A stretch of DNA of 64,000 nucleotides from Lota lota (Eukaryota; Chordata; Actinopteri; Gadiformes; Lotidae): positions 32,501 through 96,500 of the forward strand of contig JACYXH010000118.1 in NCBI GenBank assembly GCA_026745465.1, written 5' to 3'. Positions 1-6,000 of the stretch are shown here, piece after piece. The stretch's first letter is position 1. Each line of letters opens with the position of its first letter. The notes beneath the pieces are model-generated. The model saw only the letters and a program-made list of their open reading frames with translations. It was not told the DNA's origin and ran no database searches. A program made the translations under genes and the position numbers.

Positions 1-3000
1 TGCGGCATGGTCAGGATGCAGGACACGTTGTAGTTGAGGAAAGAGTTCTTCTCCTGCAGACACAAACAAAACGTTTTTTCACTATCAATTCAATCTTTAA
101 GCTAAAAGGTCGTCTTGCTGCCTCAACATGCTAGTTGAGGCAGGAGTTACTGCGATCGTCTCACACTTGGGACATAAATAGACACATTTGGGGGCCATTT
201 AGTAATGGCTATTATGTAGATGCCCACCCAAGCATCGTGCGGCCATGTTGTGTTGGAGCTGGTTACCTTGGAGAAGTAGCCGACCAGGTGGCAACCGGTG
301 TTGTCTGCCTCGGTCATGACGTAGAAGAGGAAGGGCTCCACGTCGTAGTACAGCGTCTTGTGGTCCAGGAACAGCTTGGCCAGGAGACACAAGTTCTGGC
401 AGTAGATCTGGGAACCACACATCATTTAATAACACTTAGTAGGACTCTCTAGTCTTGTGGTCCAGGAACAGCTTGGCCAGGAGACACAAGTTCTGGCAGT
501 AGATCTGGGAACCACACATCATTTAATAACACTTAGTAGGACTCTCTAGTCTTGTGGTCCAGGAACAGCTTGGCCAGGAGACACAAGTTCTGGCAGTAGA
601 TCTGGGAACCACACATCATTTAATAACACTTAGTAGGACTCTCTAGTCTTGTGGTCCAGGAACAGCTTGGCCAGGAGACACAAGTTCTGGCAGTAGATCT
701 GGGAACCACACATCATTTAATAACACTTAGTAGGACTCTCTAGTCTTGTGGTCCGGGAACAGCTTGGCCAGGAGACACAAGTTCTGGCAGTAGATCTGGG
801 AACCACACATCATTTAGAAACACCTAGTAGGACTCTCTAGTCTTGTGGTCCAGGACCAGCTTGGCCAGGAGACAGGTTCTGGCAGAAGATCTGGGAACAA
901 CACATAACTTCCCATCAAGTCCAACCTAATCTCGGATCCAGCGGTCCTGTAGCAGATGAAGGGGAGGTGGGGGGGGAACGAAGCAAAAGATAGTAAAATG
1001 CTGTGTGGAGGAAGCAATTGGCTTTCGGATCCACTTTTGGTCTGAGTGCGACTGTTACGACAGCTTCAATGTAAAGCAGACGAGCCACAGAACTCCACAT
1101 CGGGCAGGGTCACGGAGTAGAAAGGACAACACACGTTGGAAGACTCAACTTTAGGTCTTGTTCTGTGTAATATAATAGGTAGTAATGGATGGTTGCTGCG
1201 ATGTTTTGAGCAGTGCTGGAAGTTATAGCGCGGCTGTATAGCGGCACCAGTGTGAGCGAACTCATTGGAAACACGACCCATTTAAGTTCCAATGAAGTCA
1301 CACGTTTGAACGTATGGGGACTTCAAATGATCATAAAACTAAAAAGGATGTTTGTATATTGTGCTTCAATGAAATTGCACCACAGCACTAGCGCTATTCA
1401 AAGGCATGCAAAGAAAAAACACACTATTCTGGACGACGGAAAAACTAAATCGGAACTGCAGTATATAACCAGCCGGTTATTATTGTAGGTACAGCTTTTT
1501 GATTAAGGAGGAGGAGGAGGAGGACGAGGAGTGGGACCTAGGTGGAGTATGGCAGCCACCTAGGTGGAGTATGGCAGCCACCTAGGTGGAGTATGGCAGC
1601 CACCTAGGTGGAGTATGGCAGCCACCTAGGTGGAGTATGGCAGCCACCTAGGTGGAGTATGGCAGCCACCTAGGTGGAGTATGGCAGCCACCTAGGTGGA
1701 GTATGGCAGCCACCTAGGTGGAGTATGGCAGCCACCTAGGTGGCGTGTAGCATGGCCGTTGCTACAACAGCTAGTGGTAGTTTGCCTTGGCCCAAGGGCA
1801 ATGTGTCCACAGGGCCCAGGTCAACTGTGTTCATCGAGTCAAACAGAACAGAGTCAACATGGCGGCTTACCTTGTTCTTTTTGCCGTCAACCTCAAACAC
1901 GGATATGGAGCCTTTTCTGTAGACCTCGTCCCCAGGAGGATGCTTCCACACACACTTGGCCTGAGAACACACCAGAGTGAGGTCTAACTCATGTCTAAAA
2001 ACAAGACATTAGACATATTTTTTAGTGTAGTTTAGGGTAGTGGATGTTTTGGGGGGTGGGGGGGTCTCACCATGTGTGTGTCCGGGGGTAGTGGATGATT
2101 TGGGGGTGGGGGGTCTCACCATGTGTGTGTCCGGGGGTAGTGGATGATTTGGGGGTGGGGGGTCTCACCATGTGTGTGTCCGGGGGTAGTGGATGATTTG
2201 GGGGTTGGGGGTCTCACCATGTGTGTGTCCGGGGGTAGTGGATGATTTGGGGGTTGGGGGTCTCACCATGTGTGTGTCCGGGGGTAGTGGATGATTTGGG
2301 GGTTGGGGGTCTCACCATGTGTGTGTCCGGGGGTAGTGGATGATTTGGGGGTGGGGGGGTCTCACCATGTGTGTGTCCGGGGGTAGTGGATGATTTGGGG
2401 GTTGGGGGTCTCACCATGTGTGTGTCCGGGGGTAGTGGATGATTTGGGGGTGGGGGGTCTCACCATGTGTGTGTCCGGGGGTAGTGGATGATTTGGGGGT
2501 TGGGGGTCTCACCATGTGTGTGTCCGGGGGTAGTGGATGATTTGGGGGTGGGGGGTCTCACCATGTGTGTGTCCGGGGGTAGTGGATGATTTGGGGGTTG
2601 GGGGGTCTCACCATGTGTGTGTCCGGGGGTAGTGGATGATTTGGGGGTTGGGGGTCTCACCATGTGTGTGTCCGGGGGTAGTGGATGATTTGGGGGTTGG
2701 GGGTCTCACCATGTGGGTGTCCGGGGGTAGTGGATGATTTGGGGGTTGGGGGGTCTCACCATGTGTGTGTCCGGGGGTAGTGGATGATTTGGGGGTTGGG
2801 GGGTCTCACCATGTGTGTGTCCGGGGGTAGTGGATGATTTGGGGGTGGGGGGTCTCACCATGTGTGTGTCCGGGGGTAGTGGATGATTTGGGGGTTGGGG
2901 GGTCTCACCATGTGTGTGTCCGGGGGTAGTGGATGATTTGGGGGTGGGGGGTCTCACCATGTGTGTGTCCGGGGGTAGTGGATGATTTGGGGGTTGGGGG

Positions 3001-6000
3001 TCTCACCATGTGTGTGTCCGGGGGTAGTGGATGATTTGGGGGTGGGGGGTCTCACCATGTGTGTGTCCGGGGGTAGTGGATGATTTGGGGGTGGGGGGTC
3101 TCACCATGTGTGTGTCCGGGGGTAGTGGATGATTTGGGGGTGGGGGGTCTCACCATGTGTGTGTCCGGGGGTAGTGGATGATTTGGGGGTTGGGGGTCTC
3201 ACCATGTGTGTGTCCGGGGGTAGTGGATGATTTGGGGGTGGGGGGTCTCACCATGTGTGTGTCCGGGGGTAGTGGATGATTTGGGGGTTGGGGGTCTCAC
3301 CATGTGTGTGTCCGGGGGTAGTGGATGATTTGGGGGTTGGGGGTCTCACCATGTGTGTGTCCGGGGGTAGTGGATGATTTGGGGGTGGGGGGTCTCACCA
3401 TGTGTGTGTCCGGGGGTAGTGGATGATTTGGGGGTGGGGGGTCTCACCATGTGTGTGTCCGGGGGTAGTGGATGATTTGGGGGTGGGGGGTCTCACCATG
3501 TGTGTGTCCGGGGGTAGTGGATGATTTGGGGGTTGGGGGTCTCACCATGTGTGTGTCCGGGGGTAGTGGATGATTTGGGGGTGGGGGGTCTCACCATGTG
3601 TGTGTCCGGGGGTAGTGGATGATTTGGGGGTGGGGGGTCTCACCATGTGTGTGTCCGGGGGTAGTGGATGATTTGGGGGTGGGGGGTCTCACCATGTGTG
3701 TGTCCGGGGGTAGTGGATGATTTGGGGGTGGGGGGTCTCACCATGTGTGTGTCCGGGGGTAGTGGATGATTTGGGGGGTGGGGGGGTCTCACCATGTGTG
3801 TGTCCGGGGGTAGTGGATGATTTGGGGGTGGGGGGGTCTCACCATGTGTGTGTCCGGGGGTAGTGGATGATTTGGGGGTGGGGGGTCTCACCATGTGTGT
3901 GTCCGGGGGTAGTGGATGATTTGGGGGTGGGGGGTCTCACCATGTGTGTGTCCGGGGGTAGTGGATGATTTGGGGGGTGGGGGGGTCTCACCATGTGTGT
4001 GTCCGGGGGTAGTGGATGATTTGGGGGTTGGGGGTCTCACCATGTGTCGCCGGAGGATGGTCTGGCTCTTCATGTACTTGAGGCAGAACTCGCAGACGTA
4101 CAGGCGTCCGAGCCGGGCGTACTCTTCGGGGTAGGGCGAGTGGTACCAGGTGTCCAGCTCGTAGCGGCCGAACAGGATGGTCTTGATCATGTTGCTGCCC
4201 TCCGTGATCTGACCCTGGATGCGTAGCTTCTCCTGTTGGAGCAGGAGAGAGGAGGAGCAAAACAGTGGTCACACTACACCTGTGGTCGCTACACCTGTGG
4301 TGCATCACCAGGGGATGCACCAATGTTTAGGCCGAAAACAGAGTTACGGTACTGGGAAAATGGCCGATAGCCAAGACAAAAAACTCTTTGTATTGGACAT
4401 GTGAAAATGACCACAGTGGATAAAGAAAACATGTTTTAGTCTATAGTAGCTCATGAATATTGGTATCGGTAAGTACATTTCCTATTGGTGCATCCCCATT
4501 CATCTCATTGGTTACATAAATAAAATGTCCATCTACCAAAAGGTGTGTTGGGAAGTCTACAAATCATTGGGCAGTGGGTGTGGCCACCGCCCAGTTTGAC
4601 TACCAGCCTGTTTAGATCCCATAGTGTTGACAGCAGTGGTTCCCAACCTTTTCTGGCCCGTGACCTAGCATTTTCGAGTTCTGACAATGTTTGCGACCTC
4701 AGCTTGAATTTTTGTGCATCCTCTTCCACACAAATTGATTTTACCCATTCCACATCTGGCGGTGATCTCAATGTCCCAAGTTAAGATCATCGTATCGCTC
4801 TACCAGTACACACTAAGTGATTAGTTGTAGTTTGCTTGTGGCTATGAATCATTAGGCAGTCAGTTCAGATATACAGGGTATCTATGAAGAAAATAAAAAT
4901 GGTTTGCTAAAATGGATCATCAAATACCTAAAGCTTATGTCAGCTTCCCGTGCGAACCCATATGCACATCAGGAGACCCCAAGTGGGGTCCCGACCCCAA
5001 GGTCGGGAACCATAGTGTCTACAGCCTACCCAACCAGCTCCTTAATGAAATATATCTGAAACCACAGTGAGTGTTTAAACGACTAAATAGTTGTGGCATG
5101 GTTAAAATGTCCTATTACCAGGTCCTCCGACGCCCGGGCCTGGGCCTTCCTGAAGAGCTCCAGGTCGTATTCGCTGGTGATGTTCTCCAGCAGAGGTTCC
5201 CTGGTGTTGCCATGGGTCTGCCGGTGTTCCTGTGGGCCGCGCAACAAGTCAGAAAACGTGAGTAGTTGAGGGACAATATGGTTGATGATGATACTAGTGA
5301 CTTGAATTTGGCGGATTCTCAATCAATCGAATAGGGGTGCATAGAGACAGGAGAGTCTACGAAATACCCCTTCCTTTTGTTATGCAAGAATGTCTTACAT
5401 TTCAAAAAACTTGAAGCTGTAGTCTGTGAATTACTGAAATATCATGATTTATAATAGCAGTATCATGATATTGACAAAAATATGTGTTTTCTTCTTTCCT
5501 CTGACTGAAGTTCACGGATGCTGACAACTGGTTCCTCGGTTTTGATAAATTATGCAATATTATCCGGAGTTTACACCGCAGTTGATCATATTTTCTATTG
5601 TCCTCTTTATAAATCTGAAAGTTCTGCATTTACTTATCTATACAAGTTATTGACATTGTTTTATGGCATGTTGAATAAATACATTTTTAATTTACCAAGG
5701 CTTTGTTTATGTTGCACTAGACTTGTGCTCCTTCAGCCAAAGCATGGATTCACTTCTTTTTAGAACTGTCAAAAGTACTACAAACTTACAAATATCGATT
5801 TTGAACAACCACCATTTATTTATTTTATACCAATTTATAGCATTTATACCAACAATCCAAAGTACAGAAACCATTAGTTAATAATTAAATCTGATGCTTT
5901 AATTTGCTCTGCCTAAAAATACAATATTCAAAACCTTCACTTTTTCATTTGGTGTGTTTGTCCGGTGATGTTAGAAAATAGACATTTTGTTCCAAGACAA

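Follow-up and report, generated by a model that had tools for sequence, protein, structure and literature searches.

Minisatellite-like duplications of exon-intron boundaries were described in amphioxus as "mirages", which affect both 5′ and 3′ splice sites and are reported from the Adh3, globin, troponin C and PGBD5 genes (PMC3087553, PMC3902484). In their presence, reverse transcription-polymerase chain reaction suggested that regular splicing stays intact (PMC3087553). An array of this kind lies at the donor (5′ splice site) of the zinc-finger exon of a KAT7 gene in the fish Lota lota, within a stretch of 64,000 nucleotides (assembly GCA_026745465.1, contig JACYXH010000118.1, positions 32,501 to 96,500 of the forward strand) referred to below as the window. 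While the amphioxus BflGb6 mirage is reported with 6 and 3 units in two haplotypes, the KAT7 array holds 41 donor copies. Conversely, the amphioxus mirages come with splicing data, whereas the KAT7 array is known here from the sequence of one assembly.

In the open-licence literature, the only fish boundary repeat encountered was that of rainbow trout irak3 (PMC6763605), and no KAT7 case was found, KAT7 not having been a search term. The irak3 repeat is similar in that it covers an exon boundary, on the acceptor (3′ splice site) side, but it differs by its few copies, its acceptor position and its description from one gene and not as a class. The human IFI6 (6-16) gene contains a donor minisatellite of which two downstream units are reported to be used, leading to three mRNA species (Turri et al. 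1995). Hence in both genes a minisatellite provides one exon with several donor sites, with the difference that downstream units are used in IFI6 while the KAT7 replicas all lose the reading frame. The tandem dual-specific AGGT sites of the polyubiquitin gene UBC are similarly arrayed at unit boundaries; however, these units encode protein and their number varies with splicing, in contrast with the frame loss in KAT7 (PMC10809524). Internal tandem repeats of human segmental duplications also include minisatellite expansions at exon-intron boundaries. In recent paralogues, these can give rise to new introns or to alternative transcripts (PMC2812944), whereas no new intron is indicated in KAT7.

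Codfish genomes are reported to be extremely dense in short tandem repeats with units of 1-10 bp (PMC5894186). The kind of array is therefore known, while its copy number and apparent frequency look new. Splice choice among identical sites is commonly studied with two-site minigenes (e.g., PMC9225289). This genome offers a natural set: one intron contains 41 equal donors, the same gene has acceptor arrays, and other genes carry further arrays. The set also bears on how gene function is preserved in a genome rich in tandem repeats.

Forty-one equal donors at KAT7 exon A

KAT7 is transcribed from the minus strand of the window, and the repeated donor signal lies in transcript orientation. The relevant features are the following (a slash marks the splice junction in the motifs below):

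5119..5229, minus strand: preceding KAT7 exon, 111 nt, separated from exon A by an 886-nt intron
4041..4232, minus strand: KAT7 exon A, the zf-MYST exon, 192 nt, ending ...RRHM
2035..4047, minus strand: junction-spanning minisatellite with the true donor at 4040 and 40 replicas (the last at 2070), in units of 49-51 bp
1961..4040, minus strand: intron A, 2080 nt, or 110 nt if spliced from the last replica donor
1871..1960, minus strand: KAT7 exon B, 90 nt, AKCVWK...DGKKNK
267..407, minus strand: KAT7 exon C, 141 nt, IYCQNL...GYFSK

The original prediction of about 40 tandem donor copies in a unit of about 49 bp, next to the MYST zinc-finger exon of KAT7, is borne out. Exon A matches the Pfam family zf-MYST (1.7e-23) and, as its best match in the PDB, the KAT7 structure 6maj (1.4e-30), and exons A, B and C match zf-MYST and MOZ_SAS. 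Tandem Repeats Finder (TRF) delimits the minisatellite at 2035-4047, with a period of 49, 40.8 copies and 98% matches. It contains 41 ATG/GTGAGACC sites on the minus strand, with first intron bases at 4040 (the true donor), 3991 and so on to 2070. The 40 units between these sites measure 49 bp (32 units), 50 bp (six) or 51 bp (two), and belong to six sequence variants, which mostly differ in a C/A run 3′ of the donor and follow one another in a non-periodic order. The minus strand of the window contains 40 copies of the 15-mer ACACATGGTGAGACC, all within the array, and the plus strand none, against a chance expectation, by our arithmetic, of about 1e-4 copies of a given 15-mer in 64 kb. The 41st site, CCACATGGTGAGACC, is one base off this 15-mer.

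As in the amphioxus mirages, each unit joins the end of an exon to intron sequence and carries the splice signal. The last 7 bases of exon A fall inside the array, contrary to the earlier view that it starts with the first base of the intron. These 7 exon-end bases, with 42-44 more, make up 39 of the 40 units, and the remaining unit has a mismatch at one of the 7. All 41 donors are identical from -3 to +8, and from -7 to +8 the true donor equals 39 of the 40 replicas. The predicted match of the replicas to the exon end and its donor thus holds over this interval but not further upstream, where the true site reads CGGCGACACATG and the replicas, one variant apart, read GGACACACACATG.

The reading frame was followed through exon A, each possible insert, exon B, exon C and the readable start of exon D. 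Donor 1 alone gives an open frame over this distance. Splicing from replicas 1 and 2 shifts the frame and leads to a stop in exon B, replica 3 shifts it and leads to a stop in exon C/D, and the 37 replicas from 4 to 40 meet a stop within the insert. The protein variants of IFI6 are in frame; in KAT7, as assembled, none of the 40 downstream replicas is open into exons B, C and the start of D. Consequently, the repeat-encoded residues proposed to be added after the zinc-finger exon cannot arise from this sequence. Productive replica splicing is thereby ruled out for the assembled array, and its revival would require an allele with other unit lengths. Nonsense-mediated decay is the expected fate of RNAs with a premature stop, and replica-spliced KAT7 RNA should feed this pathway.

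The G runs of the array had also been proposed to form G-quadruplexes (G4). The canonical motif (four G3+ runs with N1-7 loops) has no match in the array on either strand, and a canonical G4 array was accordingly rejected. A loose motif with loops up to 12 matches once and a two-tetrad motif (G2+N1-7) 41 times, both on the template strand, where the G runs lie. Because the array RNA is C-rich and the canonical motif is without match, an RNA quadruplex has little support.

Origin of the array and choice among its donors

The likely explanation, in our judgment, is that a duplication across the junction was expanded, that donor 1 is chosen by its position and that slips to other donors are removed by decay. 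It builds on the array, its junction span, the identity of its sites and their unproductive frames, and counts as further support the recurrence of junction arrays in the window and in other genes. A tandem duplication would have captured the end of exon A together with about 36 bases of its intron, which was then short. Because the array covers the last 7 exon bases, it probably arose from such a duplication across the junction. Unequal exchange or slippage could then have expanded it to 41 copies, and this growth would have stretched intron A to 2080 nt from the 110 nt that separate the last copy from exon B. The duplication spares the exon and the first donor, and would hence be neutral while the exon-proximal donor is used. 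As a general rule, a junction duplication would keep one intact exon-side copy at any length, with coding preserved if the first donor or the last acceptor is taken. Since the coding sequence is left intact, such an array can persist as long as the exon-proximal copy is used.

U1 pairing strength cannot discriminate among the 41 sites, whose sequence from -3 to +8 is the same. In minigenes with flanking introns over about 250 nt, the upstream donor, which lies closest across the exon, was reported to be preferred, also without a difference in strength (PMC9225289; Carranza et al. 2022). With introns of 886 and 2080 nt around it, exon A is in an exon-definition setting, in which donor 1 is predicted to be favoured. 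The cell would thus most likely ignore the replicas, donor 1 being picked by position through exon definition, and slips to the replicas would be cleared by nonsense-mediated decay. The upstream CA run is also longer at the replicas (ACACACACA) than at the true donor (ACACA). CA runs are preferred binding sites of hnRNP L, and the longer run is a candidate hnRNP L site that might aid donor discrimination.

Several points weigh against this explanation. Donor 41 is only 110 nt from the start of exon B, a distance in the range of intron definition, which would favour donor 41, and sites closest across the intron were reported to pair when introns are short (PMC9225289). The positional prediction is thus not safe. 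The evidence for a duplication origin is sequence similarity, and some human junction repeats are reported to alter splicing (PMC2812944). The conflict between exon and intron definition at KAT7 makes the locus a useful natural test.

The array could instead act as a dosage dial, in which the replicas compete with donor 1, a fixed share of the transcripts is mis-spliced and decayed, and the number of repeats determines how much this KAT7 copy produces. Sites sharing their sequence from -3 to +8, a premature stop in every replica outcome and a 110-nt intron from the last donor, which suits intron definition, would all be compatible with such a dial. However, the long flanking introns favour the first donor, and the arrays in other genes are of very different size and give no sign of a regulatory class, which makes this alternative improbable.

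An assembly artefact, in the number of copies or in a section of the array, is conceivable given the susceptibility of tandem arrays to misassembly (PMC6868369). It is distinctly improbable, because the six unit variants follow a non-periodic order and because further junction arrays lie on other contigs.

A genome search with exon A gave eight matches, including the exon of a second KAT7 gene (contig C278, 84% identical), which likewise ends CACATG/GTGAGACC. In this gene, the 600 nt that follow the donor contain no TRF array with a period of at least 10. The same donor without an array suggests that the replicas are derived, and the ACATG/GTGAGACC form of the donor probably predates the array. 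At seven loci (L012-L018), which comprise exons of the second KAT7 and of further MYST-family members, the 120 nt inspected to either side of the match contained no splice-site-repeating array. The presence of a second gene raises the possibility that the first is a decaying copy, whose array is tolerated since the other copy does the work. However, exons A, B, C and the start of D, where the reading ended, are open in the array-bearing gene, and A to C retain their zf-MYST and MOZ_SAS matches, so that decay of this copy is very improbable. It had appeared unexpected that an essential chromatin gene tolerates such an array; this argument is weakened by the second KAT7, free of an array at the same donor, and by similar arrays in other conserved genes. 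At its equivalent exon, the second KAT7 contains a pyrimidine-rich array (L019 5140-5416, TRF rows of 37 and 115 bp) that ends 9-24 nt short of the acceptor and does not repeat the AG, as judged by eye.

Junction arrays in the window and in other genes

After removal of microsatellite-like units, TRF rows of period 10 or more amount to 27 minisatellite intervals covering 7253 bp of the window. At least five of the 27 span or abut a splice junction, a minimum since not all remaining intervals were compared with exons. Besides the exon A minisatellite, the arrays of interest are:

355..905, minus strand: 97-bp x 5.7 array over the acceptor of KAT7 exon C, with six ttcccag/ATCT acceptors, the true one being the last
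1536..1743, minus strand: 22-bp x 9.5 minisatellite within intron B, away from splice junctions
8376..8474, minus strand: 47-bp x 2.1 array over the donor of an upstream KAT7 exon, which ends ...SQSSQ with last base 8469
59500..59778, plus strand: 46-bp x 6.1 array over the acceptor of a WD40-protein exon (59768-59959), with six ggcgtag/GGCGTC acceptors, the true one being the last
60893..61531, plus strand: 10-bp x 63.9 array, which begins at intron position +3 past the donor of the next WD40-protein exon (60423-60890)

Four arrays span a junction and repeat its splice site, two at donors (2035-4047 and 8376-8474) and two at acceptors (355-905 and 59500-59778), so that, as in amphioxus, both boundaries are affected. 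In exon C, the true exon start is at 407, with upstream acceptors at 504, 601, 698, 795 and 890. The units of this array repeat the acceptor together with about 53 nt of exon C, and most hold tactaag or ttattaa as a candidate branch point, forming a row of complete acceptor modules. The 8376-8474 array offers a single replica donor, 47 nt on, the use of which leads to a stop. The WD40-repeat gene, assigned from Pfam matches near threshold and an open join of its exons, lies on the strand opposite to KAT7 and bears both the acceptor array and the 64-copy 10-bp array.

A pattern of three AGGTRAGT donors spaced by 15-45 bases gave 862 + 893 = 1755 matches in the genome, against 554 + 394 = 948 for the motif read backwards, both being counts of overlapping matches and not of independent arrays. 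Among the matches listed, 14 of 15 clusters were retrieved and inspected. Two of the 14 have no TRF array with three sites, two are near-identical loci (L059 and L060) and one has N upstream. Two abut a recognised coding exon, the others being judged by eye from 150 nt; a possible third (L054) has a short reading frame without Pfam match. The first (L063, G000 C28:425971-426898) is a PTBP2-like exon (PTBP2 in the PDB, 2.3e-14) followed by 21 AGGTGAGT donors at an exact spacing of 46 bp. PTB-family proteins are themselves splicing regulators. The second (L057, G000 C17, near 562585) is a PA-domain exon (Pfam PA, 4e-11) with 7 donors, the spacings of which are all multiples of 3, and yet every insert contains a stop.

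The frequency of such arrays was estimated from 40 internal kinase exons, taken in listing order among 141 PF00069 matches and chosen regardless of arrays (open frame of about 160 amino acids or less, no stops, one apparent duplicate excluded, 400 bp of flank per side). Three of them have a splice-site-repeating array (95% interval 1.6-20%), a count that is a reading and not annotation, as exon ends were judged by eye. A LATS/NDR-like exon, with CBK1 and STK38 as nearest PDB chains, has a 32 bp x 11 array with six exact donors. A MAP2K7-like exon has a 38 bp x 3.8 array with three exact CAG/ATC acceptors, including the true one, and a PKMYT1-like exon has two donors 40 nt apart. TRF gave no row of period 7 or more at 18 of the 40 loci. 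The other 22 were inspected by eye and 19 were not counted because, by our reading, the splice site of the sampled exon is not repeated, although several of their arrays lie within tens of bases of it (e.g., L071, L074, L083, L086 and L090). In addition, TRF found no array at the seven exon matches of one chaperonin gene (from a family search with 53 matches).

A wider proposal would be that splice-site arrays are present at a considerable fraction of coding exons, possibly several percent, and stage thousands of competitions between identical sites, with KAT7 pitting exon against intron definition (192-nt exon, 110-nt intron, 41 equal donors) and repeat-number alleles tuning output through decay. 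As a whole, we regard it as speculative and rather unlikely.

Splice junctions could also be preferred birthplaces of minisatellites in this genome, as the five or more window intervals at junctions and the excess of the AGGTRAGT pattern over its backwards control would suggest. However, the pattern counts are not independent arrays, and only 2 of the 14 clusters abut a recognised coding exon. The share of sequence taken up by minisatellites in the kinase loci is 11.6% in the flanks, 8.0% in their first 50 nt and 0.8% in the exon matches. Placed at random at 11.6%, they would be expected over about nine of the nominal 80 junctions (P = 0.013 for three or fewer) and, at the local 8.0%, over about six (P = 0.11), both P values assuming independent junctions. 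Hence the 40 kinase exons show no excess of junction arrays over random intron placement, and a deficit by the 11.6% yardstick only. Preferred targeting of junctions was rejected on this sample and deserves very little credence. In the absence of an excess, junction arrays are read as tolerance in a repeat-rich genome and not as attraction to junctions.

In nine arrays, including that of exon A, none of the replicas tested was shown to keep the frame open. A stop lies within the insert for 20 of 20 PTBP2-like replicas, the single PKMYT1-like replica, all 5 replica acceptors of KAT7 exon C and 4 of the 5 LATS/NDR-like replicas, the fifth being a 32-nt frameshift that was traced no further. The 5 WD40 replicas all lead to a stop, which lies within the insert for 3 of them, in the exon for another and not until the third exon for the last, and no open frame was found for the PA-domain (6 of 6), upstream KAT7 (1 of 1) and MAP2K7-like (2 of 2) replicas. 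Because units within an array are not independent, these closed frames are no proof of selection, and their use as such evidence was considered and dropped. Productive use of replicas to add repeat-encoded residues, for which the three mRNA species reported from the IFI6 minisatellite are a precedent, has next to no chance at KAT7 exon A given the frames of its 40 replicas.

One of the kinase loci (L097) contains, at 716-940 on the minus strand, a 15-bp array of AGGTAGCGGTGAGAC-like units in the intron upstream of the kinase exon. This array is rich in donor-like words and lies away from the junction of the kinase exon.

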